NCBI GenBank assembly: GCA_032622095.1
Contig: CP136066.1
Coordinates: forward strand, 92,713,319-92,777,318
Length of the DNA: 64,000 nt
Source of the DNA: Siphonodentalium dalli
Lineage: Eukaryota; Mollusca; Scaphopoda; Gadilida; Siphonodentaliidae
Direction of reading: 5' to 3'
Every line of letters begins with the position of its first letter. Position 1 is the stretch's first letter. The notes below the pieces were generated by a model, which ran no database searches, was not told the origin of the DNA, and worked only from the letters and a program-made list of their open reading frames with translations. Made by a program: the position numbers and the translations under genes. Shown here piece after piece: positions 3,045 to 32,700 of this stretch.

Positions 3045-3671
3045 ATGGCATCTGGTCTCATCAAAAAGAAAATAGTTATTCCCTCTCCTGATCTAGATGT
3101 AAATACACACACCGAGGACTTACAGGACGAGGAAGAAGACGTACTTACTGCTCTATGCAGTACAACTGGGATTCCGTACTCGCCGACAACAAGATTCAGT
3201 ATATTCCGACAGCAACAGGACGCCATTATGTCCCTTTTCTCATCCCAGACGACAACTGATACGTCAGTGTCGCCAGGGGGATCCTTGGAGAGAACGAGGC
3301 TAGCATTGGAACATACCGAATTGACTATACAAAAGAAATCGAAAGTTGAAGAAGGACTTGCTAACAGATCGGTCGAACGTTCTACAACAGCTGTGTATGT
3401 AGTTGTTTTTAAGTGGATTGTAAGCTTCCTCGTTTTTCTCTTGTTAGTGGCGTGCGTGACCGTCAGTAAAATAACTATTATCTCTCTTGGTGAGAACTTG
3501 AATTCCACAAAATGGAGTTCGGATAAAGAATCGAGAGTTGGGGATCTTCGCTGCTTCATCATGCTAATGTTGATCTTGCTCATACCCAACGTCTTGAATT
3601 TCTTGCGTTCCATCTGGGTGACGCGTCGACGGTCTGATATTCCCTCTCCGTCATGGAATGCTATAATCCTG
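3045..3671 (+). CDS. chs: Chitin synthase alternative first exon 1A (209 codons)
   Basis: The exon opens at ATG in a good context (G at -3, G at +4) and ends in CTG|GTAAGT, phase 0. The protein has a diverged, acidic and serine/threonine-rich cytoplasmic start (residues 1-115). Two membrane helices follow (about 123-147 and 171-191), then a conserved end ...AIIL. It is clearly paralogous to exon 1B at 20121-20711: KW near the start of helix 1, SK..IISL.E.LNS after it, FIML..LL.IP...FLR..WV in helix 2, and xIIL at the donor. No partner exon 2 lies between it and exon 1B. It is therefore either an alternative promoter and first exon spliced to 21903 across exon 1B, or an orphan duplicate. The frame is intact with no stop, which argues for retained use. 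The long open frame on the opposite strand (3017-3613) is a shadow. Confidence 0.75.
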
Positions 3672-4516
3672 GTAAGTCAATGTCGAAAATATTTTTGTAT
3701 TATATTTTTATTGGAATAAACAGACATCAATGAATGAATGTAAATACAGACAGGGTACATGCTATTATAGATAAAGTTACATTCTTCCAATTCTCTCACA
3801 TCTCGCTCACTTCATCTACACGTCTTTCGTACAACATATGCACCCCCAGTGACTTACATGTAAATAGGGATAAATCGAATATGTGATCATTTTTATATAG
3901 TAATCCAGATTTTAAATCTTTTGAACTTTATTCATGTGTAGGGCGCATCGGTACGAAATCTAACTATAGACGGCATTGTGGTATTGGGGCGGTAATAGTA
4001 TTTCTTGGGTATAGTAATTAAGTGACTTATCGAACTGGTGAATAGATCATTTCCAGGACACTCAAGTTTATTGGTGTTGACTCGTGCGTATATGTATAGC
4101 CTTTTCTAAAAGGAACCAGTTTTTCGAAAATTCTTGTTGTTTCGATTGGCATTGTGCGGTACACTTCTCACATTGGTATCTATAATTAAATTCTTTGAGG
4201 AAAACATTTAGCGATAAGTTAATTGGCTTGAATTTGGTCGATATATCGAACATACTGATATCAAGATACTCAACCTCCGATTGAGCTTCTTGCGTTATCT
4301 GATATGGAAATTAGCTGTTATCTGTAAATCTATTGAAGAGACAACACTTCCGCGAAAATGTATTTCATTATTTTTTCAATGTCAATTGCACATCATTATA
4401 AGAATGAACTTGCAGAACAAGCTATCAGCCTATTACGATTCAGCATTTATTCAGTAAAAACTTAACTTTTTTGGAGACCCAGACTCTGAGAATGAATAAA
4501 TCTGCAAGGCTGTCCA

Positions 4517-5671
4517 CAGGCACGTACCAACAGGGGTGTGGGGTGTCTCAATTATGGTCCTCATTGGGTGTCTCACCTCCCAATGAGGACCATAATTTTC
4601 AATAGTTGGAAATTTCATGACTCAAATTCCAATAGTTGGAAATTAAAAGTATCAAGTAAAATCGAATGAACTACTGAAAGTGTTTCAATCAGAGGACGCG
4701 ATTGTCCGACTCCGAATTTGTGCCGCTTGTTTATTTTCCCACTTGGAATTCCAGTTATAAATACTCGTCACCGATTTTCCAATTCCGGAATTGTACAAAT
4801 TGTTTTTTCCTACACCGAATTCCGAACCAGGAATCTATTATGTTTTACATGTGAACTTTTCAAATCATGTGGTGCCTTTCACTCAATATATTGTTAACTT
4901 GTTGATATGCATATATGTTAAACATGTTTTATTATTATTATTATTTTAAATGTTCAAGGGGACATTGCAATTATACATTAAGTTCCTCCCATAGCAGTAT
5001 ATTAACCAGTTTATTTAAAGTTGTCCTGCCAGGTACGTAGCAATGTAATGTCAATGTTACAAGTTAATACACAGTCATTTTAGTAAATACATTCCAGTAA
5101 TGCTCATTACCTGAACACATATATGAAATTGAAGGCAAAGCATTCCCTTCAAGTTCAGACTGGTATGTTTTGCCAACCATAGCTTCATGATCACTAGTCA
5201 ATTAGTAATGGCAAACCTCCATATCCTTCTGAGGATAGCTTTAACGATATAACAATCATTCAGCATGTATAATTGTTACCAGTGTGTGAGTTATAACTTG
5301 TGACTCTTTGGAATTTGAATACATGTAACTGGTTTCGTTCCTCAACCATATTGTGATTAATATGATGTATAATGTACATGTACTGAACGCACAGTGTACT
5401 CAATACATAACACGTATCAATGCTATGTCATCCTTGTTACTAGTGTCTTTATTTACATGTCCGTGCTCTTAAATAGAACACATAGAAACCCAAATTATTA
5501 AGCCATTATGGCAATATTGAAATTTGCATTACTCAAAGCCAAACCCTATATAGTTGGACAGTTTTATTAGACCAAATCCTGGAAAATTGGACATTTTATT
5601 AGACCAAATCCTATATAGTTGGAAATGTTAACGGTCTCACCCCCAGTTGGAACCCCATAGGAACGTCCCTG
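4517..5671. mobile_element. Non-autonomous hAT-like element with 8-bp target duplication
   Basis: The element starts CAGGCACGTACC and ends GGAACGTCCCTG. It is flanked by identical 8-bp copies of GCTGTCCA (4509-4516 and 5672-5679). Eight-base duplications and CAGG...CCTG ends are the hallmark of the hAT superfamily. Inside are repeated short phrases of the type AGTTGGAAAT, shared with the element at 15998-17167, and a hairpin near 4548-4596. There is no transposase frame, so it must have moved in trans. Confidence 0.8.
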
Positions 5672-6024
5672 GCTGTCCAATATGTTATAAGAGACACATC
5701 CCGGTCATGATGAGAACATCATTAAATGACGCATCTTAATTAAGATATATATGAGCTTTCGAAATTCATATCTCTGCAGCCCAGTACCAGTGCACCAAAT
5801 CATATCAGCAAAGCAAATAAACACTAAACTCAAATGCGCTGTTTCGTTCCAAGTGCACGCATGCATATATGATTTATCAATTATCATATAATATTGTTTA
5901 ATGCCATGTCAATTTTTCCACTGGAGTGTACATGCGGTAATCGGGAGAGAAGTTTCTTATATGTGGCTCGCACCTGTTCTTCATTCCCGTTGTTGAACGT
6001 ATGAAAGTATTTATATGCATACAT

Positions 6025-6552
6025 CAGGGGGGGGTCGGAAAACAATTTCAGGCACGTATGCTGATTTTTTCCTTTCGACCCTTGTTGGGACCCACCCACC
6101 CTCGCGTCCAAAATTTGTTCCGTTTTCGGCATTTTTCTCCCGTCCATTTTTGGACACCCACCCCCCTTTTAACACTAAATCAGAGATATATACGGGGGGG
6201 AATTCACTGTATACAGTGTATATGAATTTCGGTGCATACTATTTGTCATGGATGTTAAAATTGACGTGTAAATAGGTCATTTTGGGGTCATTCGGCCAAA
6301 AATACATGGCTGCCAGCGGCCATCTTGGATTTCAAAATTCAAACCATTAGCATGGGCTACAGCCTACAGGCTATACTGTTTGTCTGATCATCATGAATTT
6401 GTTCATTTATGTTAATATTGACATTCTAATGTGTTTTAAGCCAAACTAATTGCAAAAACAGTCAAAAAGACTTGCAGAAAACAAAATTGTTTGTTGGTCC
6501 CATCGACCACCCATCCATCCCGGCATACGTGACGGAACCCCCCCCCCCCCCT
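6025..6552. mobile_element. Short hAT-like MITE with GCATACAT duplication
   Basis: Starts with CAGGGGGGGG and ends in a long C run followed by T(G). GCATACAT stands on both sides (6017-6024 and 6553-6560). The terminal G of the right end can be assigned either to the element or to the duplication, so the duplication is 7 or 8 bp. No coding capacity. The C and G runs may be of uncertain length in the assembly. Confidence 0.65.
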
Positions 6553-7454
6553 GCATACATGACGAATAAATATGTTAAACTACACCGGGGGCATCTCCGT
6601 CCACATCGATCACAAAACGTCACAATTGTTTTGCTGTATGCTAAATTGCGACAGTATAGAGAACGGAGAGGTATGTATAGTGAGCTGTCCTGTGTCACCA
6701 GACTGGTTCACATGCTCCGGCTATACTATGTCAGAGTGAACAAGTGTTAAACGGGTTCCCATCGCCAAGTAGCCCGATGCTAGTAGTATTTGGATGAGGG
6801 ACCACCTGCACCACAGCGTATTCTGAGGCAAGTTATCCCATTTTCTGGGCCTGGTTGTCCCATGTTTTGATTAAATATTTGATGCCATATTCACATTTTT
6901 CACTGTAAAAGTGCTTACGATCGCACAACACGTCCGATCTCGTGTATGGTGACATCAGGATTTGTTCTACCCGCAATTAAATGGTCAGTTAAGGTTAATT
7001 TGAATATTTATACCAGATGATATGATGTAAGTAATGCTTTATTATTCCCAGTCATTATACATGGTACATGAGAAAACGTGTATACACTATATACAAACTA
7101 AACTTTCCAGTGGTTTGTTCCGAATATTGGAACTTACATTAATTGTAAGTATATATAAATAAAATACAAAGGAAACAATACGATCAGTTACGATCCAATA
7201 TTGCATTATCATGTCCGGAATAGAAAAAGACAATTTATCTAAAGATCCTAAGCGAACCAAAAATAAATGTCATTAGGTATACATCATGATCAATATATAG
7301 GCGCTACAGTGTTGTTTTGTCATTGTTTTGAAGCTAGTATATTGTAAATAACCATATATATGGGTTGTACATCAATTACGTGAAACTATTAATCAATATG
7401 TGGCGATGCACTAATATTACGTACATGCTTATTATCGGGAATTAAAAAAGAGGT

Positions 7455-7543
7455 ATACAATATATACATACACACCCATATGCATACATATGCATATACA
7501 TACACGCATATATATACATATATACATACACACATGTATATAT

Positions 7544-7575
<32 letters not shown>
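7455..7575. repeat. TATACATACA-type microsatellite
   Basis: Imperfect ATAC/TATA repeats over roughly 120 bp. The tyrosine- and cysteine-rich open frames read from the minus strand here are products of the repeat, not genes. Confidence 0.85.
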
Positions 7576-8239
7576 TGGTACATTCGTTGTGAAATCTTTC
7601 ATGTCTAAAATACGTAGAAACATAAAAATAACAACATAATATGCATAGTGTTGCCATGGATGAATAAAATTCGACGTACCCTTCATGTGCATCACGCTCG
7701 TCAAGTATTTGAATAGTTATTTATATTGCTTCAATCCGATTTGTATGAAGTTTGTAAGTTTTTTGAGCTTCGTTGTTTCTGAAGAATTTAATAAAACATA
7801 AAACGACTCTCGCGATGGATTTTTACAGATCGATTCGTCAATATATATCATCCGGCATTCACATAATTTTTGACACGTTCAACATAAAAACGACTAAGTG
7901 ACGGAAAGTTTTTCAAGTTACGATAGAATTCTCTTCGTGACGATTGAGATACTTCATTATTCCACTGAAGGAAAAAATGTCAAGTAGTTGTGTGTGCATA
8001 CATTGAAGTGTTTAGAATTCGAAACGGGTACTGTTTTTTCCAGTTGTTTTCACAATCCGCACGCACAAAAATATCGTATTCTTTTGCCATCGCCTTTTAT
8101 AACTTAAAATTAGCTTGTACAATGTGAATGACTGGCTACTTTTTCGTCTTTAGGCGGCGCCAAAATGAGGTCATTCTTTTTCAACGCGCAATGTCCATCT
8201 TCCTAGCTCTTCATAAACCATATAATTTGGAGTACTCAT

Positions 8240-10290
8240 TTTCATGTATAGAAGCTTACAGAATTTGAGATGGACAGACTCGATGTCGCCCGTGTTCTCA
8301 AAGCCCAATAATCACATCCATATAACAGTATTGGTTGTAAGAGGTAATAAAAACGTTTTAATGCTAGGTCTACAGAGAGGTGAAGATTTCTCACTTTGGA
8401 CAGTAATCCGTACATAGCTTTTGTCGATTTCATTTTTACCGACTTGATTGCCCGACAGAATCCTCCGGTGTAAAACAATTCAAGGCCTAAATAAGGAAAC
8501 TGTTCAACTATATATAATTTATCATTACAAAGCATGAAATCTGGGGGAGAACTCAACTTCTTGTTGGTGAAGATCATTACCTAAGTTGTTTTAGCATTGA
8601 TTTTGATTAATTAGAAAAAGCATCTAAATTTCGTTGCATGTCATAATGATTGTCAACAAACAAAACAGTATCATCTGCATATAAGATGCACCATAGTTTG
8701 AGATAAATCTCTAAATCATGGAAAACACGATCGTTAATATACTTTAACCCCTCGAAAATTGTGTGGATCATTCGAGTAGATAGAGAACAGAAGAGAGGAT
8801 ATGTTATAGCCTTGTTTTAACCCTACGTTACTTACACAACGGCCTGTTCTCCCAAAAATCCACACATTATCTGCTTATAATAGAACTTGTTTTAGATAGA
8901 TAATCTGCTGAGAATCGCCTCATTTTGAGTCGATAATGTGCTGAAAATTAGAGCATATTAGTCACACTATCGACTCATAATGAGACGATTCTAAGCCGAT
9001 TATGTGCGGACAATGACACAAATAAGCCAGCTCACGACTTTTCGTGTGTACGCTCTTTAACATATGTTTTCACTGTGGTCCGCAACATAAAACGAAATAA
9101 CAGACAAGACTCCATTATCTGCTCATTTCATACTCATATAATCACAGTATGTACCTAATTCACTTTATATGTCGATTATGTGCGTATTTGTTGGAGGATA
9201 TGTTGCATATACAATAATCTGACAAACGACCATTACTGAGTACGCAAGAATTTGTAGCCTGGTACATGTTCCGAATTATATTAAATATCTTGCCATTTAT
9301 TCCGGTTCTCATAAGCTTAACCCATATCGCCTCTGGCCAAACAGTATCAAAAGCCTTTTTAACATCAACGAAAGTACAGAAAAGTTTCTTTCCCCACGTA
9401 GGTAAATTTCGGTTTAACTGTATAAAACGAATATATTATCTAATGTTGAACACCCCTTTCTAAAACCCGTTTTGTTATCCTTGAGTAAATTGTTGCGCTC
9501 GACATAAGTTCCAAGACGCCTATTCAAGATCCAGTGAACATCTTACCAAGGGTATGAATTAGGGTCAGTTTTACATCCTTTATTTTTATACAGTCCCATT
9601 ATCATGCCGATAGCCCAACCATATGGTAATAGTATACGCATCTAATATATTGTACCAAGTGGAATAATCTTGAGTAAAACGATCACTTTACCTGATCAAC
9701 GCCAACATCTTTATTTCTTTTTAAAGAATTACAGCATGGGTGATCTCATGTGAATCAACAGGTGGATTGAGCTCGTCGTCAGGGTTATTGAAGACGCACA
9801 TACTATCGATGAGAGCAGTCAGTTCACTATAATGTGTTGCCTCATTTAATGCTTTAAAATGATCGAATAACTTATCAAGGCTAATATTTTCAACTGCTGC
9901 TCGTGCATTATCATTTGTAAAAATTTCAAAGTTTTCCAGAAGCACTCCTATGAATTTTTTGGTATTTCCCTCAGTTCCCGATTACAATGTTCAAGCATCT
10001 CTGCGCGCTTTTTATCCATCGTTCGATTATATTGATTGCTCGAAATAATCCTCAATTTATTTCTAATATTCAAAGACTTGCATAAATAGCACTCTTTCTA
10101 TCCTTATTAAATGACTCCTTTACGGCGACATTCTGATTCAAACCACTTTTTGCATCTTTTCGATTTGATCTGTTTTGAGTGCCAAATGTTTGAACGGCCT
10201 GTTCTGACAGAATGTTTACTAAACAGTTCGTACTCTGCATACAACTTCGTTTCTGACAAACACACTATATCATATCTATTCAAGTGATTA
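8240..10290 (-). pseudogene. Decayed LINE (non-LTR retrotransposon) reverse transcriptase
   Basis: On the minus strand, reading from about 10290 down, there is a degenerate linker region. It is followed by reverse transcriptase blocks FVDVKKAFDTVW (near 9350), a GLKQG block (near 8800), the catalytic YADD box (near 8675) and the C-terminal part ending LLYGCDYWAL (near 8300). Stops and frame changes interrupt it, and a separate repeat (8839-9205) is inserted between the FVDVKKAFD and GLKQG parts. These blocks identify a non-LTR reverse transcriptase; I cannot assign the clade with confidence. It is dead. Confidence 0.8.
8839..9205. repeat. Interspersed repeat R365, copy 1 (inserted in LINE)
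   Basis: About 365 bp that recurs almost end to end at 34929-35290; a diverged part appears near 63580-63690. It includes an imperfect internal palindrome around GATTCTAAGC/GAGAATCGCC. It interrupts the LINE reverse transcriptase, so it inserted after the LINE. No coding capacity. Confidence 0.8.
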
Positions 10291-10359
10291 AAATTCGTGA
10301 CAATGAAGGCACTTCCGTATTCCGCCTACATTCAGGTCTGTAAACTGCAGCTTACTTAT

Positions 10360-10600
10360 ACCATCCTCATCACCATCCTGATCGCCACCGTCACCATTAT
10401 CATTATCATCGCCGTCATCACCATTGTCATTGTTATCGTCATCACCATCACCATCATCATAATCATCATCGTCGTGGTCACCATCATCATTGTCATAATA
10501 ATAATCGCCATCATCGTTGTCGTCATCATCTTAAATCACTATCCTCATCGTGGTCGTCGCTGTCGTCGTCATAGTTGCCAGATTTATTATCGTTAAAAGA
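10360..10600. repeat. ATC/ATT trinucleotide-rich microsatellite
   Basis: About 240 bp of imperfect ATC, ACC and ATT triplets. The isoleucine/valine-rich frame across it (10297-10596) is an artefact of the repeat. Confidence 0.9.
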
Positions 10601-10613
10601 TTCGATAAACAAA

Positions 10614-11027
10614 CTAGTGTTTGTAAAATTCATACGTGTATACAACCGAGGGTTCTAACTCAAATGTGCCCAACATAGAGACATCTGAGTCAGTTATACA
10701 TTTAGGGACATCAGGAAAATATCGCTCGTCCATAATTATATGTCGTTGAGATTTATCATTATAATATACGGACCCATGCATCTGCCCGGCGTTGTCGGTG
10801 AGGCCCGCTTCATATCCTGAAAACAAATAATTAATTGTAATCACATCAAAGATATTGGCAGATTTACCTACAATTCGTCCCTGCCCGACATCGTCGGTAG
10901 GGTTGATATAACTTACCGGAAATAAGTCCTTTAAAGGCCCACTTAATTTTCGAACCCCCATGCAGATTACATTATATAAAATATATGCCATATTATATAC
11001 CATTTGAAAGAGGAAGCTCCAAAACAT
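10614..11027 (-). CDS. Unrecognised minus-strand open frame with splice-like sites
   Basis: A 137-codon frame I do not recognise. Inside it, reading on the minus strand, a run ending TTATTTGTTTTCAG looks like a 3' splice site just before a GYEAGL stretch. A CCG|GTAAGT sequence after KDLFP looks like a donor. A 67-residue terminal exon from GYEAGL to the stop is therefore possible. Composition after that point is non-repetitive, with mixed charges and aromatics. The LINE lies downstream on the same strand, but I see no endonuclease motifs, so I do not assign it to the LINE. It could be a captured or decayed host exon, or chance. Confidence 0.3.
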   Translation of the reverse strand: MFWSFLFQMVYNMAYILYNVICMGVRKLSGPLKDLFPVSYINPTDDVGQGRIVGKSANIFDVITINYLFSGYEAGLTDNAGQMHGSVYYNDKSQRHIIMDERYFPDVPKCITDSDVSMLGTFELEPSVVYTYEFYKH

Positions 11028-12444
11028 TGTTTTATCAACTTACTCGGGTGTAATAAACTGTGGACATGTTGTTTTTTTTGAGTTGTGAACGCGTTTTGTC
11101 ATTAAGATTGAAGTAAATATCAGTGTATTTTCAATGCAGGGGGAATAACTCTATATATTATTAAAGTTTTTCCACTGCGCACGTTTAATGTTTTTGGTGA
11201 TACATAGGTATACATCGCTTGCTCTGAATGCGCATAGAGTGGTAACTCTTGACACCACCTGTCAGGATATCGAGTAGCATTATCGTCAGGGACAATATCA
11301 TCTGGATAAACTGCGGTTACAGGCTAAATCACTTGTGATTCACGCAGAGACAACTTCTTACATCGAGCATCTAGGGATAGTTTATATTTAGTACCATCGT
11401 CAGTTACATTGCGTTCACCGTAACTATTTCAGTTTAAGAGGGGGACTTGAATAGCCACTCTGAGCACCGGAAACAACGTCAAGATTTGAGTTATGCTCGA
11501 TGCATTTTACAACTGATTCAACGTTATCAGAACATGCATGCACAAACCTGTGTGAGCTTATGGACCTATCATCGACAATCAGACAACAATATGAACATTT
11601 ACAACACGGAGAACGAATTTGGGTTTGGGTGCATGATATATATGTACATCAATCATGTCTCGGGGCCTTGTTTTCTGGGCTCTTGGTGCGTTTAATTGAT
11701 CAAGTGACAAGAAAATTATTAAGCGAAATGCTACTACGAGCCGAATGAAACAAAACTTTATCAAGAAAATGTTATCAATAATATTCCATTACTCAATTTC
11801 CGTATATGCCAAACTGATGGGACTATTGTGTCACCTCGGCATTGCGTTTCCACAGCCCGATAGAGGGAGGGTTAAGTTTTTAGAGTGAGTGTGAGTTATC
11901 AATACAGTTTACCCATCACATATCTACATATTGCTATAGAAAAATGAGCATAGCCAAATTAAAAATCGATAACAACAACATTTGACAATAATTCGCATGG
12001 TTATGTTACGAGTTCCGCGTTCATATTTCTGAAAAACGCTTGAAATTTCGAAAAACAAATTAATGAATTTCATTATATGACAACCATGATGATAATATCA
12101 AAACCTGGAACGGATCTTCGTGTACAACCTATTATATAAACATGTGTGTTCTACACGTCACGGACACCATCTATCATCAGAAGGAGAACTATAGATAAAA
12201 CTGGCATATAGTTTCGACTCCCGAACCCACAACTATACATTTATTGGGTATTGAGTTTTAAGGCTGCTTTCGTCACGAGGAAGTACAACACATGGACAAA
12301 TGACAGAACTCGAGCAAAACTAATAAAAAATATATGTCTATACAGGCGAACCATCTCATTGATACATAAACAAAGAATACCTATAGTTTGTTTTTAATAC
12401 CGAATATCTCATGAGTGAGATGTTTCAGGTATTCCGACAAATAC

Positions 12445-12537
12445 AGTAATGCTCAGTAATCGACCCGTAAATCCTGAAAAGTTACCCATAATGCTGCTGT
12501 GGTTAAGGGGTCGATTACTTAGAGCATTACTGTAGTT
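12445..12537. mobile_element. Palindromic MITE, about 93 bp, full copy
   Basis: The two ends are inverted copies: ACAGTAATGCTCAGTAATCG and the reverse of CTACAGTAATGCTCTAAG. A half copy of the same sequence lies at about 61951-62015. No open frame. Confidence 0.7.
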
Positions 12538-12574
12538 TTATAATATGCGCCTTATTTATGTTCAAAGTAGTTAA

Positions 12575-15560
12575 GTTAACTCTTAGTAGTCTATGCAACA
12601 CGGGAGGCGAGATGTCTCCCCCTCACCGAATTTATGGGATCACAATTTGATTGAGGCTGAACTATTCCCTTTTGAGAATCCGGATGTTGTCGACCCCTAA
12701 CAGGACGCAAAATAAAATTATTTTGACTTTATCAATGGTACCTACCCGACAATTTAGCATTTTCGATGACACCACATCTGTATCTGTATCTGTATGTTGG
12801 TCGGTGTAGGAGCCTTGATTTGGCTATAGGTTCACCGTTGGACGACTTAAGCTGGTAATGTTGTTGTTGATGTTAAATCACAATAATTTAACATCATTAC
12901 CTATTCAATGTAGAAACCATAATACGCAAACACAACAAGGCAGGCCTGGTGTTCTTCCGTTTGGCCGATGGTAACTGATCATGTCAACATTCAATTGTTT
13001 CTAAATTCGATAAATTCATGGCGTCACGACGACAAGCTTTATTACAATCCACTAAGTGCGCCTACAAATAGCCGAAAACATTAGAAAATTATGTACACTT
13101 GTGATCTGCATGAAGAAAAATCGAATATATGCATATTCGTTCAAAAGGCCGAAGCCATTTTAGTGTCAAAATGTGCGGACTGGTTTGCACAACAACATAT
13201 ACAAGATCCGCTTTAGGAAAAATACACAATTCAACATGGCGTCCAAAATGGCAGCTCGTATTGGAAAAAGCTAAATTTCTGCGATATGCACACCAATTAA
13301 TGTCAAATTCGTAATACATTGAAATAAACAGAAATAATGCTTTGTTGTGAAACAGAGCTGCAGAATGTCTGTTCCAAAAAGGCCGCCGAAATGGCCAAAA
13401 TCGAGTGAAATTTACAATTTGTGAAAAAATTAATAGCTATTCATATAAGAGTGAACACGCACTCGAATTATGAAAAGAAGAATGATTGCAGAGTATATAT
13501 ATGAATTATCTCTAATGTATCTCACGAAAGAAAAACCGAAAGCAGGTTCCATACAACGGTCAAATCTTTGTATGTGGGCGCCCAGAAACATATCTTCATA
13601 TATGCTTGCATTGAAGTGACCGATACATCCTTCAGATGGATCTGTTTTAATGACATGTGTACCTTTAAAGATATTTAACAACAGACTTGCATATTAACAA
13701 TACGTATTTTCACTGTTTATCCAAACTGTTGCTCTCGTCGTGGCATTGCTTGGAGGTGCGGCCATTTTGACAGCCATTTCATGGTCGAGATTGCATTATT
13801 TTATGTCCGTGTCTGCGCCGAGATCCGGGATATGTGTCGTAGGGTGCATTTACACTGATATAGAACTGTATACAGATCTGTATGAAGTCACGTGTCGCGC
13901 ATTACTGTGATCACAATATGATTACTAATAGTGAACGCGCGCTGATCAGTACTCTGGTAATTGACAATTCACTACGAGTCGTTTCAGATTAGGCCAGACA
14001 TAAAAATGGATCAACTATCAGCAGACAACAGCGATTTGGTATGTGCCGCATGTATTTAAAGTGTATCCTTATACCACTTGATAATGGTTCGAAGAAAGAA
14101 TGAAAATCGCATAGGAATACACAACAAACAACCGTGTGCACAACTAGAGAGCACCCATATAGATTTAGATGGCGATTCCACCAATATTTAGGATTTCAGG
14201 TGATCATCTATATATCTATAGGTCTCTTGTTTGACACAATCTGGGCGGTGGCCATTTTGGATATGTGTGGAATGGGTATCCACCCTACAACACCCTTTAT
14301 TTGACCAAATGTAGTAAAAATTCCAACTGATGACAATTCCAATGGCAATGTTGACCCAATGTAGGACAATATTTTTTTCTTAAATTAACTAGCAGTTTTT
14401 GACTGGCCACGGGAGGGACCAGGACACAATCTTTCCAAGTGTTGGAAATTTCCAACCTGACACCCGCCCCCATAAAGTTGGAAAACTTCCAGCTGATGGC
14501 CATTCCAGCCCAAAAATTTGATAAAAAGTAGGAAATTATGCAAATATTGGTCCGAAAACAATACCCCACAATATAATGTTTGAAAATCAAACTACAAGAT
14601 CATTTTCAACCTATTGTTGGTTTGGAAATTACAACTAATGTTGTGTCAGGTATGACATTTCCAACTGTTGAAAATTTTGACCAAAGTTGCCACGTCCATG
14701 TCCGTGTTCAATATTCGAAATACACGGGTTGAAATGACAACGAACGCTAAAACACATTCGCCAAGCCCGAGCAACAATTAATCAAAACAGATTTGCCTGT
14801 CACAATGCTTCGGCGTTGACCGTGACGTATAGCGGACATGAGTTATGCTCACACGAACTAATACCGTGTTCTTTCTGTGTGCATTTCTATTTCAACCCGT
14901 TTACACTAGTCTGCGTGTAGATCTGTGTACAGTTCTATAGCAATGTAAATGCACCCTTAATCGCGTGGTCGGTATATGCTCAATCAATGTTCGTGTCAAA
15001 ATAGCTATACACATTTGGGGAGAGTTAAGTGTTTGGTGTATGGACGCCGTTCGATTACTTTATTACATATCCTCTTCCTTGTTGAATCACTGGATGGGAT
15101 ATTGGCTGTATGATACCAATGATACCAAAACCAAAATAATTATGTGGGTGTTTAGAGGAGACCAATTGACTGAATTGATGAATAATTTCATGACTCGTCT
15201 CAATTCTCGCCGTCGGGACGTCATGAATTTATCGAATCTGGCGACAAATGAATGTCGATTTGACAGAGTGACCATCAGCCAAACGGAAGAACATCAAGTT
15301 TGCCATTTTGTGTTAACGTGTTACATTTTCTTCATTGATTGGGAAATGGTATGGTGTCATATAAAATGTAAAAATGTCGGGTGGGTACCATTAGAAAAGA
15401 CGAAATAATTTTATTCTGCGTCCTGTTAGGGGTCAGAAACAATCGGATTCTCAAATGGGAATAGTTCAGCCTCAAGATAATGTTTTTGGTTCCATAAATT
15501 CGGTGAGGGGGAGACACGTCGCCTCCTGTGGTGCCAAGACTATAGTGTATTAAATTGTTA
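12575..15560. mobile_element. Large inverted-repeat element, about 3 kb, with nested pieces
   Basis: About 150-170 bp near 12576-12745 reappears reverse-complemented near 15375-15560; the shared core includes CGGTGAGGGGGAGACA and GCGTCCTGTTAGGGGTC. Inside is a second, shorter inverted pair (about 13847-13885 and 14925-14960, core AGGGTGCATTTACA). A block at 13100-13800 matches the minus strand of 40550-42260. A 147-codon frame at 14965-15408 (+) lies inside, but I do not recognise it and cannot support it as a gene. The nested arrangement suggests successive insertions into an older TIR element. Confidence 0.55.
14280..14700. repeat. Degenerate copy of the TTGGAAATTTCCAAC repeat family
   Basis: Contains repeated GTTGGAAATTTCCAAC-type phrases and a segment around ACTAGCAGTTTTTGACTGG that also occurs twice in the hAT-like element 15998-17167. 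The ends are not readable, so it is a partial relative of that element. Confidence 0.6.
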
Positions 15561-15997
15561 GCTACCTAATTAGATAAATAGCGTATGTGTAAGTATTTAC
15601 AAATAGATGAAAGCGCCTGGGCCTAAAGTTGAAATTGACACGCTGTGGCTCAAACATATAATTATCGATTGATCACGTGCCTTCATAAATTCGTCGCTTT
15701 TGATTGGCTAGTGGATTGTTTGCATGCACTGATCACTGGATCGACCTTAGCAGGCCATGTTATTTTCAAGCACTACAGTGAAATAAGAATATAGCTATGT
15801 GACATACAGTGAAATGCGATTTCGTTATTTCATTGTACAATGAAAGAACGATATCGTATTCCACTATAGCTTCGAAGAGATACATGTGACGATCTACGTT
15901 TCGGTAATTGCATGTCCACTATTTTATAGGCAAGCATGTAATACAAAGATCTACCCGTGAGCAGGGTGAAGGGGTACTTGGTGCATAACACTGTTCT

Positions 15998-17167
15998 CAG
16001 GGATGTGGCTAGAGGGTCTCCGCTGGGGGGGTGTCCACCTTGGGAATTTCCAACTGCACCCCCCCCCCCCCTTGGAATCACACCAACACAACTTTTTGCA
16101 TATTTCCATTTGCACCCCCCCCCCCTTGAGTCAAAATCACACCAACACAACTTTTTGCATAATTCCATTTGCACCCCCCCCCCCGTGTACCTCATGCTCA
16201 GGCCTAATTTCCTATATATAAGCCATGCTTCTATTTTCCCAGTATGAAAACATTAAGATATTTTAACCTGAAAATTGCCCCAAAAAAAACAACTACCGGT
16301 AGTGATCTAATTCCAGACAAATGCACACAGCTACCGACAACAGACCAGGAAACACCGGGCCGACCATGGTTGTTTGGCCCGGTGTGAGAAAATTTTGAAA
16401 ACTATATACTAGAAAATCGCAAATCCTAGCATCTAGACTGGCCTCAACTGAAGCTTTCCTAGTGTTGGAAATTTCAAACCTCATGCTCCCCCTCAGGTTG
16501 GAAAATTCTTAAACTGATGACCATTTATGTCTGCAAGTTTGACCAAATGTAGTAAAATATTGTTTTGCTAAACTAATTAGCAGTTTTGTATTGGCCATGT
16601 GGATGGGGCAATGACACACCGGGCCGACCATGGTTCGGCCCGGTGTGCGAAAATTTTGAAATCTGAACAAGAAAATCGCAAAATCCTAACATCTAGACTA
16701 GCCTCAAGCCTTCCTACTGTTGGAAATTTCAAAACCTACACCCCCACTTAGGTTGGAAAATTTCCAACTGATGACAATTCCAATGACAATGTTGACTAAT
16801 TGTATGACAATATTGTTTTCTTAAATTAACTAGAAGTTTTTGACTGGCCACGGTGGAGGGACCAGGACACAAGCTTTTCAAGTGTTGGAAATTTCCAACC
16901 TGTCACCCCCCTAAGGTTGGAAAATTTCCAACTGATGTCCATTTCTGTCAAAAATTTTGACCAAAAATAGGAACATATGCAAATATTGGTCGAAAAACAA
17001 TAAATTCCCCCCAATAAATTGTTTTATAATCAAACTACAAGAACAACTTCAACCTATTGTTGGTGTGAAATTTCGTTGTGGCAGGTATGAAATTTCCAAC
17101 TATTGAAAATATAGCTCTCTGCTGGGGGGTGAGACACCCCCCACACCCCCCTCTAGCCACATCCCTG
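15998..17167. mobile_element. Non-autonomous hAT-like element, 1170 bp, 8-bp duplication
   Basis: Ends are inverted: CAGGGATGTGGCTAGAGGG at the left and its near reverse complement at the right. Identical ACTGTTCT stands on each side (15990-15997 and 17168-17175), the 8-bp target duplication typical of hAT. Inside are two tandem copies of a roughly 60-bp unit with long C runs (16068-16180). Two direct copies of a roughly 260-bp block begin near 16352 and 16615, each with a GGGCCGACCATGG hairpin. No transposase. Confidence 0.88.
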
Positions 17168-18420
17168 ACTGTTCTAGATGTTTGTCATATATGGGGTGAC
17201 GGTTATGCGCTATCGGTAGATTGGTGGTGGTATCAGCCACACAGCTCTGTTCCAGATAACATCCCACACATATGTATATGCCACACAGATACGATTATTA
17301 CTCAATCTCGCATGATCCATGTGTTTACATGTTATATTATATACCCACAGAAGGGGAACCAATGTGGATATAATGATTGGATTTGTTTCGAACGATATGG
17401 ATTATCTCGATTCGTCGAACTTCAAACAACAAGGATGTGATAATGTATTAAGCACGGACTCTTCAGAACCAATTGTTAAACTGAATAATCACTCTTAATA
17501 TGGCAATGGCATTCTGTGATGAGTATACAAGCACAAATTTCACGAACAACAACTCAAATTTCCGCAAGCCTACATATAAGGTCTTATTATTCAACCGCAA
17601 CAAGAGCCCTATATACATTCACTTGCTCCGAGACTCACCTCAAACCTCAATGGTTTATTCTCTTCACTCAAACTACATGGGTATTGATACCGCAAATGCA
17701 TTGTGCACTTCATCTCGCGCCGACCTCTAGTATGAATTCAACTTCAAAATGAAATGAAATTAAGCAAAAAACGGCATTACATTTTATGAGACCAGCACAC
17801 CAAATGTGGATCAACAAGGGCTTCACACCGCGTACCTCCCGCAAATGTGACTTTTCGCTTAAGTGTATATATTTTTCTAAGGGCGTACACTGAATATAAT
17901 TCAAACACGAGTCAGGGGTATATAGAGATCAATTGAAAGTTGGCATGGTTGCATTTTTACTCTAAGGGCCATAAACTGAATGCACGAAACCAGTTCCATG
18001 CATGCGAATATCGTTCCAAACCTGACTGTAATGTAATGTCTGATATAGAGAACTCCAAAGTTGTTACGGACGGACGAGCAATGCACAGACGGCCAGACAT
18101 ATGGACAGAACCAACATCTATCCGCAAAACTGAATTAAAAAAATTTAATCATCGAAAACTTCATGAAAAACTTCCACAATTAGAACCTTAAAAAGTTAAT
18201 ATTAAAACAGAAATTGAAAAACAATGGATATTATACCATTTGGTAAAATATGGTATCTGAACTGAATGGATTAATTTTCAAGAAGTGAGACACCACTTGT
18301 CCTCGAATCCCATTGTATGTATAAAAGTGTATGTGCTATATAGCATGCATGTGTTCACATCACTTTAAAATACTATAAATTCATACTGGCTATAGCTGGC
18401 AACCGCATTTTCTTGTTGTC

Positions 18421-18621
18421 TGATTAACCTATGCTATACTAAATGGATTATCCCACTCAAATATAAGTGTAAATATCGGAATGGTCCATTATTCATTTGG
18501 ATGGTTTTAGTCATGTAGAATAAGTCCTATTTATTGGATGGCTATGTTCAGGTAATTGTATTATCTGAACATTTCATACGGGATAACTACACATTAATGA
18601 GTATTTACTATAAAAGAGTTT
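18421..18621. repeat. Interspersed repeat, copy 1 of pair with 38090-38290
   Basis: Shares an ordered series of phrases with 38090-38290, for example GGAATGGT(C/T)(C/T)ATTATTCAT, AGTCCTATTTA and CATCAATGAGTATTTA-type ends. In both places a copy of the CACTGAGTCG MITE follows downstream, so the two loci may share one larger repeat. Confidence 0.55.
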
Positions 18622-18724
18622 TAAAAAAGGTCATAATTCATTGTGTGCATGCAGATTTTTAAGTACGCCAACGTGGGGGGTCGAAGCCATCATCTAACCA
18701 TGCTTCCTATGTCCCTATGTGAGA

Positions 18725-18785
18725 CTCGCATATATAAGAGAATGTGTTGGCACAGAATTTTCGCAAAAGGAAGGGAAGGGTTAAA
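18725..18785. repeat. Right-end remnant of the TTAA hairpin MITE
   Basis: The phrase ACTCGCATATATAAGAGAAT followed by GTTGGCACAG, and a tail ending GGGTTAA, matches the right end of the element at 60320-60710. The left part is missing. Confidence 0.6.
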
Positions 18786-18924
18786 ATAAAGCAGAAACAA
18801 TGGAGTGGGTTAGTTGTTATTGCTGGCGCGGTCTTCAAAAAATCAGTCGTACTTATGTCCTTGCAGTCATATTGAAACAAGACCAACATCTCCTTGAAAT
18901 CAACACGGTGTAGACAAGCGAGCT

Positions 18925-19050
18925 CACTGAGTCACTACCATATTGGATCCGTCCAGCCCCCATTCCGCGGTTTAAGTGCTACAGATCAAAGTTCTGGAGT
19001 TGCATTCCATATATTGAACTTTTGAATATTCATGAATTCCATATATGGAA
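18925..19050. mobile_element. Half copy of the palindromic CACTGAGTCG MITE
   Basis: Begins CACTGAGTCACTACCAT and runs through GCGGTTTAAGTGCTACAG to the centre of the palindrome, matching the complete copy at 38795-38996. The second arm is not present. Confidence 0.65.
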
Positions 19051-20120
19051 TTATATATTTATATAATGTTATATCTTTTGTAATAACACGCAATAGAACA
19101 ATGACTATGGTATACACATGTATATATATACATATTAATGTGTATAACATGAGGTCCACACGAGAGAGGTATAGTCTGTCGCTTATACAAACATTATATT
19201 GACATTCAGTGCTATCTAACATACATACAGACATACATATGGACGACGGACATGGGCCCATTGTGGTAGCTTATTTTGACTCTGTTGACATGTGCAATCA
19301 ATCGCTGGTTGCATATATAAGCCAGGTGTTCCAACTCCAATGCATTCTTCCTCGCATGTTGGTGACATAACAATTTTTGTATGCGATGCACTGTGCGATG
19401 TATCAAAAAGAACGTGTTGAATAATGTATACTGTGTGTATAATCTTATATATGCTTAGAAATAATAGATCGATTCATAAGCAAACAGTGTCTCTGACGTT
19501 TAATTTCAAAGAAATAGGTACACATCTTGGTTGTAATTGCGGGGTACGGTTATAGTTTATATAAGCAAACTATTCACACACCCGCGTGCAGCGGGTATAG
19601 AGTGCATGATGCATGTCTGGACACAACAAAAGCGTCGAGCAACAAACACACTCAAACATAAAATGTTTATCGCTCAGTGTGGAGTGTGTGGTCGACAGCC
19701 GGAACGGTTACTAAATAAAGCTTTCTAGCCTACCTATTTGACAAGCGAATTCATTTCCTAGTATATTGTGTAACAAATTGAGAGTTTAGATAGCCTGAGC
19801 GTGCATCTATCCACGCGATAACTAATTATCATATGTTGTCACTTCTTGGTTTGGATTTCCCGGATGGTTATTCAACAAAATGTGGAATTTCCAAATTATA
19901 TTTCGGAATGCCAATGGATAAAGTTATCAGGCGCGCGGTATTTTCGCCAGTAGTATCTACATGTGTTAGATGTGACACTATCGTTCTTTGAAATCATTTC
20001 TCGTTGTTTGTTTCCGGGATAAGTCTTCATCGCCCGTTCGATTTTCTTGACCGTATATAGGGAATTATAATCCAGAAGAATAACGGAGTTGCTGTAGGCG
20101 GCTTCCCTGCTACATTTAGC

Positions 20121-20711
20121 ATGGCGACTTCGAGGATTGAACCAGAGGAACACATGGCGGCGATCGGCGAAGAAACCACCGATCTTGACAGTGATGTCTT
20201 GAATGCTGATGTTGAGAAACATAGAGATCTGATTACGGGCGCGGAACGTCTGAATATTCCCGGAATTTCCACTGACGATGCTTCTGTTGGTAGTAGCAGC
20301 AGCAGCGTTAAATCTACTCCCAGAAAGGGTATTTTTTCGAAATATGCCAAACCGCTGACTATACAGAGTTTGTCAAAACTCGATCGAGAGATCGAGGAAA
20401 GGACGAAACGGTCGAAACAGTATTCGAACCGATTAGCCACGATTGTGAAATGGATAGCTACCGCGCTGGCGTTCTTTATAAGTGTTTTCTGTGCAACGGC
20501 TTCTAAAGTCTCCATAATCTCATTGTCGGAAAAATTGAACTCTTCCGGGTCAACAGAAGCCGTGTCATCACGGAGAGTAAAAAGCCTCACTAGTTTCATA
20601 ATGCTGGAATTGTTGTTGATTATACCGAGTTTTATCGGATTTCTTCGAGGGTTCTGGGTTAGTGCATTCCGTAAAGATCTGCCGTGGCCTAAGACATCAA
20701 GCATAATATTG
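20121..20711 (+). CDS. chs: Chitin synthase exon 1B (residues 1-197)
   Basis: First in-frame ATG after a TAG at about 20058, with A at -3 and G at +4. The cytoplasmic start is acidic then serine-rich (a run of six serines near residues 57-62). A basic charged stretch precedes helix 1 (about 109-134), and helix 2 spans about 158-180. It ends ATATTG|GTGAGT, phase 0, in the same position as exon 1A. A TATA-like GTATATAG lies at about 20051-20058 but I cannot show it is a promoter. The minus-strand frame 20027-20704 is a shadow. Confidence 0.9.
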
Positions 20712-23700
20712 GTGAGTCCACAGTGAATCTTATATGTTCAGTTTACTACGAATCGGGCGGTTGGTGCCTTTGATGTTCCCAAACCTATTCGTTGGCTGGA
20801 AGAGCTTACGGTTGCTATGAAACAAGGCATATGTTGAAATAGTTTAATTAGTTTTACAGTGCATGCCTGTATGCTATGATGAACCCGATAACATACATTC
20901 TTTTCATCTTTAATTGTGAAAATAGGACGAGTGTCACGTAAAATGAAAAACAGTGTTAACATCATGGAATAATTTCCAACATCGTTGCACAAGTAGAAAT
21001 TTCAGTATATTGAAAATAGCCAATATAACACTGAAAGTATGGGGATATCAAAATTAGGGTGAACGAAGAATTGTTAATGCATCAAGCTACCGGCTTAGTC
21101 GGTGCTTTGTAGAAACTATCTGATTATAATTATTTGATTGACAGGTGTGGTCCATTGGAACAGACCAGTCCATATTAACGATCTTCGGCAATGACTCTTT
21201 TTAGTTCGTGTATCATGGACGTATATAAGAGTACCTTTGAACATCTCAAGATAAATACAAATGCCAAGGGAATGAATATTTCCACCGAAACTATCGTTTG
21301 TCACTGTTATTGTGACTCTTCTGTGTTATGATTTGTTTATTGCGGCGTTCTCAATGTCTCTGTAGTTGAATATACCTGCTCGTGACCGCTCCGCGTGACC
21401 ATCGGTGAATACGTCGGTTAACTAGACTGATCACTTCACGTTTTTCGGTCCAGCTATTGTCGTTTTCGAGTCTTCTGCCATCTTGTATGGTGTGCGTGTG
21501 TCAACCTTACCCCCTGAATCATGAATACCAGTTAACAGGGAGAGGTGAAACCGCGTCCCAGTCAAGATCATATGGAAAACAAGATTAGTTATTCCACACC
21601 CATAGCTTATATAAAGAAGTGTTATATATATATTACATCAAAATACATGGAAAATTGTATGTGTGTAATATTGTGGTATAACATTTCCGTAGAAACCTGT
21701 TTGTTGAATCCTGAATACCGGTTAAATTGGGCATGTGAATCCCGAATACAAGTTAACAGGAGGTTTGTATCCTGCGTATATTCAATATTACCCGAATCCC
21801 GCGTATACCAGAAGGGGGGGGGGGGGTGACACCCACATCTTGCCACATATACCTTCTTAACAATATAATGACTAACAAGCTTTTGTGTGATTTGTTTTTC
21901 AGGGTGTAGTAGTCAGCGCGGGTGAATCCTTCGGACTATGTCTCTTTGCATTTAAAATACTAAGCATGACGAGGGGCGCTATCGGCGTTCTCCTAATGAA
22001 CACAGTATACCTCGTTCCACTGACATTCAACATGTATCGATGCATCCGCAGTGCCAATGGCGAACGGCGGCTCAAGATGTGGATAGTAACTTTCATATTT
22101 GCTTTTCTCTTCGAAGTCGTGGGTATAGGCCTGACAATATACATGTTCGTCGACAGATACAAAATGTTGTATAGCAATGACTTAAGTAACATTTGGCACA
22201 TTCCTGTTGCAATATTGCTTGTGTCAATATCTTGGGTGCCATCGATTCAAAACCGATTAACAGTGGCATCACAGAGGAGTATTGATGCAAATAACATTGA
22301 GGTTTCAGTGAGTGCCGGATCTGACCCGGAGCAAGGTGGAAGAGTCGACGGTTCTCTGAGCTGGACGCAATCGACGACTCCTAGTTCTGGTTACAACAGC
22401 ACAGAAGGTCTAGATTTTAATGGAACACTTCCAGCTGGCCACAGTTCACTAGCACGAGAGAAAAGAAAGAAATCTCCAAAAATGTCGTCTGCGATATGGA
22501 AGCACATGATGTTACTTAGTTTGTGGAAAATCCTGTTCATCATCGGATTCGGTATACTCCTCAATTTTTACGATCACGGACAGACCTACAGCGATTTCTT
22601 ATCTGATTTTCGAGCAGCGTGGACCTGGGATTTCAATGACCCGAGCCATCAAGTGCAGTATTTTATTGTTAATTCTGTCTGCAGTCTTGTTGGATATTTC
22701 ACCGCCTTTCTGGCATGCAGTACGTGCATGCAAGGTGTTGGTTTCGCGTTGCCATTATTTGTGGCAACTCCCGTTGCCTTGGTGGTAGTGATCGTCAAAG
22801 AATCTTGCCGCTTCGCCTTTCTTGAGGATGATAAGACCTGTTTGTCAGATTACAACTACCTGTCCCTGCTTATTCCAGCGGCGTTATGTCTCATAATAGC
22901 GCAAGGTCTATCCATCGGTTGGTTCGTATTTAAAAGTGGAACAATTGTTCTTCAGAAGGAGACGAAGGTAAGAACTTGCTTTATCAGCTCTAATATAACA
23001 TATAGTCGTATCTCCGGGTTGAAAGATGGTGATACACTGAATAACACTGCCGTTATTGCCGCTTAAAATATTAAACAGCCATGGGCACATTAGTAATTTC
23101 TCTTTGATATAGGTATATTTACTATGTTAATTGAAGAGGAAGTTGACATGCCCAAGTTGAATAGCAACAGTATAACTACTGTGCTATATGAATAGTTTGA
23201 AAGAATAATCGAAATATATTCCTCATTACATTTACTCAGGGCCATATGGTGATTTATTGTACAAGAAAGCTATTTAGTTAATAGATGTGCGTTTTAATCA
23301 TATATAGACTCAATCAACACTTCAATGGCAAAAGCTCTATAGGCATAAACATATATGTACAATATGTATAAGAACATACTACTGCATATTCACCGTAGGA
23401 TTTAAAATGCAGCACATTGTGTAGGCTAAATCCTTTTTTGATTTCAGGTATTTTGGATACCCACCTACAATAGCGTATTATTAGAACAATGGCTCTTGCT
23501 GAATGTTCGAAATCAACAAACTGACGAAGCTTTGGAATTAGCCAGTGATAACGCAAAGAGAACGCGGGTGTATATCTGTACGACTATGTATCGTGAGGTC
23601 AGTATACAGCCTGTATACATTATATCGAAACAAACGCATGCCTTTGACACATTAAATTGCCAACCATGATTTGGATCATGAATAACTATATAAATATTTC

Positions 23701-29700: not shown

Positions 29701-32700
29701 ATTATTCATGAAGCTTGTCCAATCCATGCTCAAAATTGCCATATTACATAGCATTATACGATAGCCTACTGATTTTCAAGAGCGAAGTATGGCCAACAAG
29801 AGCAAGTTCTCCCAGCGTCAGAATCCTTTCTCAGGGATAGTGACGCTGTTAAAACACCGATTTTTTACACGATTCTTGCTACAGTGGATTTTTAATAGAA
29901 ACGGTAATGTATTATGTCGGTAACGTATTCTGTCGGAATCAAACACTTATTTCAGTGGCAATTCATAAAAACTTCCAACTGGTCTAAATATGCGATGTGT
30001 ATAATAAACTATATGTAATGTGCAAACAACTGAGTATGAGTAAATAAACTACTCCCAACCGTTTTGGAGATGCAGGGTAAAAGCTTGGTAACGTATCTGT
30101 CGCAAAATTTCCGTACCATTCTAAAGTGGCATTACTTATGGAATTCCTTCGAACACTAGGCGGCAAACTGAACTGAGTGGTCATTACATAGATAATGTAT
30201 GGCCTTCGTGTTCACTTTTACTGAGTATTCCATGTTGTAAAAACAATTTCAAGAGCCATGTATGAGAGTTATTTCGTCGGTAACGTTTTCTGTCGCATAT
30301 TTTTGCGACAGCCACTCCCGACGTCAGAAAACTGTGGAAATTATCCAGGGTTTAGTGTCTATGCATGTGTGCTAACGCACGTGTCTTGTGGTTTAGATCG
30401 GCGATATCACGTTCCGCAGCGGATGGTAAAAACGCGGAATCGGCTGGTCGCGACGTTTCACATACAGCTTGCGACAGGGTGTTTTGGGTCCATATAGACG
30501 ACATGATGTAACGTGGACGCGCAGGAAGAGGCGTTATGAGCCAGTGGTGATATTTATTCATTTGATATGATTTTATGTAGTAAAACTTAGGATAGCATGT
30601 CAAATATGTCACCCGTTTTCTTTCCGAAAATCAACAGCGACACGAAAATTGCGCATTACGCCCATTTAGCTGAGAATGTGCCATAAGTTCTGTCGACAAT
30701 CCTGGTCAATCGTAGCAATTTTAAAAGAATATCCCGAAGAGTGATCAGCACAAAATATCAGAAAATTATTTCCGCATTTCCACAACACTCTGAGTCTGTT
30801 CAACGTAAACATGCATGATCAGAAAAGTCAAGAAAGATGCGATGGAACGGTTGTCTTGGTTTCATTATGTTGACGGCTCGAAACGTAAACATGTGATATA
30901 TTGCGAGACTTTATGATAAATCAAAGACGCTGTTTCTTACTGGCTGCGGAACATACCATGTCTTCTGTTAAATCCAATAGTAAGCTATCTTCCTAACTTC
31001 GTTCAAACTTTCAAGACGTCGGTGTTAGTTGTAAAATGTCCAAAGGACATGTGTATTATGTTGGACAGTTTCAAAGTATTTTGTGTATGCTAATGAGATT
31101 AGAAAGCTTTGTATCCAATCGGGCTGCAGTTGTATAGCCATAGCTGGAGTTCCCTCCAAATTAGTGATCTAGTCACGTCACTGAACGTTGGACGGAATTG
31201 CATATTACATATAACGAGAGACATATATACGCCATTTTGTGGTCCCATAACATGAGAGTCACTTCCTGTCTGCAGATAGAGGGCTGTAAATTACAAATCC
31301 GATATCAAAGGGTGTGCTACTTAAATCTCGGTTATATTAGGTTATATTAGGTGCACTCAATATGGTCTTTGACATGGTACACTGATAGCAAATACAATGT
31401 GGCACCAGAGCCAATATCAGATTGATGGCTACATGTTTAATCTGTATTCGAAAATAATATTCACAAAAGATGTCTAGATTGGAACAAGATATGACCATCA
31501 CATAAATTTATGGCGTGCACAGGTGGGAAACATTTGTTAGGTACTTGAAGATCGATCTATTTAGGTTGAAATCAGTTGCCACATATTACCTGATGTAGTA
31601 TTAGTATTCTAACTAAATTATATTCCAGGAATGTGTTCTATATAATTAAGCTGGCCGTTACAACACATAATATGCGAAGCATATCTAACCATGTGTAACG
31701 CAGGTTACTCACACTGTTGGACGGGGCATTTCCTGATAAACTAAATATCTGTTTATCTGGTCGACTAATATGTACGAACAATCACAAATTACTTACACAC
31801 CCAGCCGATCTGTGACTGTTATTTGTATCCGACCGCCGTACATATACATATACCAGAATGCATTCTAATTTTAGAACGCAGAGGAAATGAAACAGATACT
31901 GCAGTCAATCAATAGAGTCAATCTTGCACAGAACCAAGGCGACCGTCATTTTGAATCTCATATATTTTTCGATGGCGGAGTCAAGGACACAGATCCATCG
32001 GCATTCGCCTTGCAGCTAGTAGCAACCGTGGAACAAACTCTCGGTGAGTTAATGCCATATAGTTGGCAAGGCGCCAACCTTTGTATTTTCAAATACTCAG
32101 GGATTGGTTTTGTTTTTGTGTGTATGTGTGTAACGTCATGTACCATACGATTTGAAATGAGTAGTATCTGGCAAATAATTTTAGTTCGACTCATGTTTAT
32201 AGAAGACAAAGTGAGTACCGGTAATATTTTGGTGTGTTGTGGGAGTTTAATCGAGGATTTTCAGTTTGATTACATCTGTGAACAAATGTTAGTTTTTCGT
32301 CGAAACCCAATATGTGTAGAATTGTATCAGAAAGATAAGAGGTTTACGAATATGAATCAATATTTTAAGTGACTAATGTTTTATGTGGCAAAATTACGTG
32401 AAATTTCAAACATGTTGGCGATTATTTTAATTGAAAAAATAGTTTAAGAAAACGGGTGTTCATATTCAGTTGGGGTAAAACGCTACAATAAAGTTAAGAT
32501 TTGTTTGAATTTCGGACACAGATTAGTATATTGTCGCTTTAGATCTTGCCAAACAATTATTTTCCATAACTCAAGTAGATATGCATGTATTATGTGAATT
32601 GCGATAATTATACTTGTTAACCATAAACATGCAGGTGTGAAAGCTGCCGAATGCACGAAAATAAAGACGCCGTATGGCATGCGACTCAACTGGCAACTTC

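Follow-up and report, generated by a model that had tools for sequence, protein, structure and literature searches.

Bombyx mori has one chitin synthase gene with two 5' variants, BmCHSA-2a and BmCHSA-2b, and two promoters, the second of which lies between exons 2a and 2b (PMC6001065). RNA interference (RNAi) against the 2b form in moths left the wings undeveloped (cited in PMC6001065). Alternate exon usage in the chitin synthases of lophotrochozoans and other animals has been raised as a mere possibility, without data (PMC3942024, 2014), and functional studies are lacking for the type I branch (PMC3942024). Type I animal chitin synthases are marked by one or two C-terminal SAM domains, which are absent from type II (PMC3942024, PMC10216261); these two papers disagree on the placing of the cnidarian enzymes and agree on the SAM criterion. 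Here we describe a window of 64,000 nucleotides from Siphonodentalium dalli (contig CP136066.1, positions 92,713,319 to 92,777,318, forward strand), in which two candidate first exons, 1A and 1B, precede the body of one chitin synthase gene. We estimate a probability of roughly three in four that these are mutually exclusive alternative first exons of a single type I chitin synthase, produced by an old tandem duplication of the first exon. The locus offers a concrete and cheaply testable candidate for alternate exon usage in the type I branch. Outside the insects, the way in which animals direct chitin production to shell, bristle, gut or cuticle is, to our knowledge, little understood.

Homologous exons 1A and 1B and their fit to a shared exon 2

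The front of the gene consists of the following features, with a slash marking the exon-intron boundary and TM1 to TM3 denoting successive transmembrane segments.

3045..3671, + strand: first exon 1A, 209 codons; 92-residue cytoplasmic head, predicted TM1 and TM2; phase-0 donor CTG/GTAAGT
20121..20711, + strand: first exon 1B, 197 codons; 78-residue head, predicted TM1 and TM2; phase-0 donor TTG/GTGAGT
3672..21902, + strand: presumed 18.2-kb intron separating 1A from exon 2 and enclosing 1B and its presumed promoter; deduced from the splice sites
21903..22967, + strand: shared exon 2, from TM3 onwards; acceptor score 10.1, phase 0

The membrane segments of 1A and 1B had been predicted to be homologous, and the alignment bears this out. 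A single-pair BLASTP comparison that spans the two predicted membrane helices gave 49 identical residues among 119 aligned positions (41%, E = 7e-25), and the relationship is reciprocal genome-wide: in tblastn searches of the 2.23-Gb assembly, 1A found only itself and 1B at E <= 0.001 (7.9e-19 for 1B), while 1B found itself and 1A (3.1e-18), with the next of its 11 rows at E <= 10 standing at E = 0.557. In a tree of seven TM1-TM2 segments, 1A and 1B were sisters (support 100/98), although three of the four inner branches of this tree are open, its long branches are flagged as unsure, its outgroups are very distant, and the first two residues used for the C3 100M paralog are probably intronic. 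Over these segments 1A and 1B share 42% identity, compared with 13-18% between 1A and five paralogs and 15-18% between 1B and the same five. The heads, which comprise the first 92 (1A) and 78 (1B) residues upstream of an LTIQ motif common to both, had been called unrelated. As far as can be detected this also holds, as the head alignment is not clearly above chance: in 2000 shuffles its local score was equalled 583 times and its global score 127 times (6%). On the global score the heads might still be faintly related. AlphaFold2 models of the isolated exons were of low confidence (1A: pLDDT 63.2, pTM 0.31; 1B: pLDDT 64.5, pTM 0.30) and showed in each case a pair of long helices and little order in the head.

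The acceptor of exon 2 at 21903 (TTTGTTTTTCAG followed by GG) is in phase 0 and matches the donors of both 1A and 1B. Both exons end in the hydrophobic residues IIL, which run on into TM3 of exon 2, as would suit 1A and 1B each being spliced straight to that exon. Frames and splice sites therefore agree with the open frames, phase-0 donors and common exon 2 of the original prediction; as alternative first exons should, 1A and 1B each have a start codon of their own and can be joined in frame to one shared exon.

The position of this junction can be compared with that in paralogs elsewhere in the genome. A search with exon 2, in which the query ran 33 codons past the donor, returned 17 rows including the locus itself; six of these, representing five genes, were followed and ten were left. 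The five paralogs compared are those with exon 2-like frames near Chitin_synth_2 matches, and nine further chitin-synthase-like places lie outside the comparison. In all five, the frames read show a phase-0 donor after TM2 and a phase-0 acceptor opening the next exon, as they do here, which places the donors of 1A and 1B at a family-wide intron position. TM1 and TM2 are on separate exons in four of the five paralogs and on one exon in the C4 gene, as in 1A and 1B.

Divergence between 1A and 1B is concentrated at third codon positions. Among 115 aligned codons we counted 50 differences at first, 44 at second and 89 at third positions (44%, 38% and 77%; excess of third-position change, p = 8.7e-11), a pattern which makes both exons look coding and constrained; since the count pools both lineages, it is silent on how the constraint divides between them. 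The NG86 method gave a dN of 0.58 and a dS that was not computable, which we take as probable saturation. When 1B was allowed to evolve neutrally in simulations without insertions or deletions, the frame was still open in 1 of 2000 copies at 0.5 replacements per site and in none of 2000 at 1.0. The case for 1A and 1B as coding exons is carried by homology and by the codon-position pattern, and 1A bears no mark of being a decayed copy.

We also searched for another partner of 1A. The shared protein (exons 2-13) found only four matches in the 41.9 kb upstream of exon 2, the best of them at E = 0.16 on the wrong strand, in agreement with the earlier statement that no second exon 2 lies between 1A and 1B. 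Across the assembly, exon 2 matched its own locus and then gave weak matches only (best 2.1e-4), to diverged paralogs, and the exon encoding QRRRW matched its own locus and 14 diverged places with at most 48% identity. The 104-kb joined stretch around the gene is without N. Barring sequence missing from the assembly, 1A seems to have no other downstream partner there. The original prediction had accepted that it would fail if 1A belonged to a gene copy with its own downstream exons; none were found in the assembly, and the claim was not refuted on this point. An N-terminal motif about 13.5 kb before the window, an 11-residue match to a WD motif of a paralog, was set aside as chance, as it has an early stop, no donor and no following helix. 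What the DNA itself demonstrates is homology, coding-type constraint and splice compatibility, and no other downstream partner was found in the assembly. The original observation is confirmed and its interpretation partly supported: two first exons, homologous to each other and both under constraint, precede a single gene body. The genomic arrangement is, at the level of sequence, real and well supported.

Start sites, promoter signals and alternative explanations

Good start contexts had been claimed for both exons and were found at both, each with a Met-Ala beginning; at 1B there is no upstream ATG within 150 nt. Several observations count against use of the two exons as alternative starts. 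An ATG at 3005 (+ strand) begins a short reading frame that extends across the 1A start in a different frame; translation of 1A might be damped by this ATG in transcripts that begin before it. The 500-bp bin with the 1B start is a local high in GC content (0.46) and CpG ratio (1.40), and the bin with the 1A start is no local high (0.43 and 1.05), both bins including coding sequence, against a window background of 0.375 and 0.95; these bins give no clear promoter signature. In blastn, the 2 kb before 1A and the 2 kb before 1B share only four matches of 12-17 bases at E 0.49, which is chance level, and on this ground we rejected a common promoter left from the duplication. The introns after 1A and 1B share two matches, of 15 and 22 bases (E 0.29). 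The branch leading to 1B is longer than that leading to 1A (1.23 vs 0.48, with distant outgroups). Finally, the openness of the sense frames is by itself weak evidence, as both exons are likewise open on the opposite strand (219 residues across 1A and 236 across 1B).

The main rival to alternative first exons is a single protein in which 1A is spliced not to exon 2 but into the sequence just before 1B, through the following feature.

20061..20120, + strand: open stretch ahead of the 1B start codon; its in-frame AGs would put the first exonic base at 20061, 20076 or 20079, and a TATATA stretch lies just before it

A join of 1A to 20076, or to 20061, would be in frame with 1B and would yield two tandem front-end modules with four N-terminal helices. 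The three AGs that are open to the 1B ATG score 1.8 (20061), 5.7 (20076) and -4.6 (20079). The acceptor at 20076, 45 nt before the ATG, exceeds the 95th percentile of the 698 AGs found in the interval 3700-19900, which is 4.8. It is of ordinary strength, within the range of 0.9-15.7 of 21 modelled acceptors scored by leaving one out, and these scores speak for the rival and permit a route other than a direct join of 1A to exon 2. However, the exon 2 acceptor is the stronger of the two (10.1 vs 5.7), an equally good in-frame acceptor within 60 nt is not rare by chance (a rough estimate is one in twenty), and the start of 1B resembles that of 1A in both its first residues and its context. The IIL end of 1A, moreover, suits the start of TM3 and would presumably be left as a stub if joined to 1B. 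We consider this tandem-module protein unlikely.

A reading that we regard as at least as unlikely takes 1A to be what is left of an upstream copy of the gene, partial or whole, and to have dropped out of any working transcript. Tandem chitin synthases are known in the mollusc Lottia (PMC3942024), and the present genome has two further chitin synthases about 18 kb apart on C3. Against this reading, no matching downstream exon was found upstream or elsewhere in the assembly; 1A retains an intact frame, an intact splice donor and coding-type divergence, is about as close to the paralogs as 1B is, and has the shorter branch of the two. Read-through of the 1A donor is the least probable of the alternatives. 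With 1A used alone, the product would be a small membrane protein with two helices, conceivably a binding partner or regulator of the synthase, and the 1A frame does run on beyond the donor, reaching its stop 48 bases later with the final base at 3719 (stop to stop, 232 residues). The donor, however, has the full consensus, and its position is that of the donors in 1B and the five paralogs.

We therefore retain mutually exclusive alternative first exons as the preferred reading, and a two-promoter switch of the front end is most likely what the arrangement represents. An ancient tandem duplication of the first exon of a type I chitin synthase gene would have given rise to 1A and 1B, each copy keeping its own start codon, cytoplasmic head and TM1-TM2 hairpin and ending at the same ancestral phase-0 intron. 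The choice of first exon would be set by promoter choice, with one promoter before 1A and the other inside the 1A intron, and splicing of either exon to exon 2 would produce two enzymes with identical catalytic and SAM parts and different front ends. We infer the junctions themselves, the two promoters and the mutual exclusivity from this arrangement. Our guess is that the heads decide to which membrane, partner or tissue one and the same polymerase is sent. More tentatively, and with a likelihood somewhat below even, a switch of the entire front end, TM1-TM2 included, may have arisen under promoter control in a type I (SAM) synthase separately from that of moths, so that one gene would provide two old and functionally distinct synthases; under such a switch the front ends would have been kept apart long enough to reach about 42% identity.

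The shared gene and its paralogs

The modelled gene has 12 shared exons between 21903 and 57949, with GT-AG sites and consistent phases. The spliced model through exon 13 is free of stops and encodes 1147 residues with 1A and 1135 with 1B, preserving the 12-codon gap between the 1337 and 1325 codons given originally. Exon 2 is followed by these features.

23448..23597, + strand: shared exon 3 of the gene model
31875..32043, + strand: shared exon 4 of the gene model
32635..32762, + strand: shared exon 5 of the gene model
35512..35590, + strand: shared exon 6 of the gene model
39013..39209, + strand: shared exon 7 with the GT2 core; its open frame scores 27.8 bits for Glycos_transf_2 (cut-off 23.3)
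49608..49775, + strand: shared exon 8 of the gene model, GEDRW motif
50649..50904, + strand: shared exon 9, QRRRW motif; its open frame scores 38 bits for Chitin_synth_2 (PF03142; cut-off 27)
51983..52098, + strand: shared exon 10 of the gene model
54714..54921, + strand: shared exon 11 of the gene model
57093..57287, + strand: shared exon 12 of the gene model
57865..57949, + strand: shared exon 13; SWGTRE straddles the exon 12/13 join
63108..63278, + strand: open frame with most of a first SAM domain (SAM_2, E 3.1e-7), running to a GTAAGT donor; exon start approximate
L003:470-805, beyond the window: open frame with a second SAM domain (SAM_1, E 9.3e-9)

The spliced translation contains both GEDRW and QRRRW; EDR and QRRRW are signature motifs of chitin synthases (PMC6696430). 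The two SAM frames would be spliced onto the catalytic exons, and a final exon, which encodes a hydrophobic segment, seems to stop around window-equivalent 70080, about 6 kb beyond the window. By its predicted domain content, which includes two SAM domains at the C-terminal end, the gene is assigned to the metazoan type I chitin synthases. Among the matches listed (65 of 513 candidates scored), no myosin-head match lies near it. Searched against the PDB, the spliced 1B form (exons 1-13) matched six chitin synthase sequences over residues 736-1113 only, so no solved structure found in this way informs the front end.

Two features within the gene are recorded here in their own right. The acceptor of exon 10 and the first bases of that exon are tandemly duplicated 78 bp apart, at 51905 and 51983 on the + strand (GGTTCCTACAGGCGGACT); the upstream copy at 51905 keeps the frame, and its use would lengthen the protein by 26 residues. 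Between exons 7 and 8, the intron holds the remains of a retrotransposon on the - strand (45252-47893): one frame matches reverse transcriptase (RVT_1, E 5.8e-27), and another resembles an integrase (rve, E 1.1e-4, which falls short of its cut-off).

The C4 paralog has its TM1-TM2 exon at L013:6366-6911, with a long threonine- and proline-rich insert between the helices, unlike the four other paralogs. A match to 1B in the same gene (L013, near 2748) was rejected, as no first exon is readable there and the TM1-TM2 exon lies at 6366-6911. Myosin-head exons lie upstream of two paralogs on the same strand, C3:221.20M (about 17 kb) and C3:167.54M (about 29 kb), a candidate linkage; myosin-linked animal chitin synthases are known from lophotrochozoans (PMC3942024). 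A cluster of many myosin-head exon matches with near-equal scores, some with an in-frame stop, occupies C4:274.2-275.5M and is perhaps a tandem myosin array or a set of alternative exons. The two further chitin synthase frames on C3, L014 (C3:118.865M, + strand) and L015 (C3:118.884M, - strand), are oppositely oriented across their spacing of about 18 kb; they carry GEDRW and QRRRW (IQRRRW in L014), and one has an open frame of 654 residues.

Comparison with known systems

The original prediction did not include the type I identity with its SAM domains, the lepidopteran precedent or the post-TM2 intron common to five paralogs. In its Chitin_synth_2 core, flanking helices and two SAM domains, the present gene is like other metazoan type I chitin synthases; the available part of PMC3942024 mentions no counterpart of its proposed alternative first exons for this type. 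A paper on mollusc shell (PMC2241824) was dropped, as alternate exon usage came up there in the reference list only. Among the matches listed in a search of open-access titles and abstract openings, which leaves most of the subscription literature uncovered, none reported a chitin synthase of lophotrochozoans or of type I with alternative first exons. As far as these literature searches go, the kind of arrangement is known from moths and would be new for a gene that is of type I and probably lophotrochozoan. If true, it would be a parallel to the moth gene with its CHSA-2b form. The 2b exon is reportedly called Lepidoptera-specific in the title of one cited study, and a report of the CHSA-2a/2b kind is said, in a reference-list entry, to exist for Ostrinia.

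Exons a and b of insect CHS1 (59 residues) are, like 1A and 1B, homologous alternative exons of a single gene, with one transmembrane helix each (PMC6355952). Unlike 1A and 1B, they are internal 177-bp exons of equal length, 74.6% identical in one species, and are not starts (PMC6355952). The Bombyx CHSA-2a/2b gene differs from this locus in being an insect class A gene, type II according to PMC3942024, and in having been demonstrated with RNA and RNAi, whereas the present locus was read from the genome sequence. It is like this locus in its architecture, as one chitin synthase gene with two alternative 5' exons, where the second promoter is intragenic (PMC6001065).

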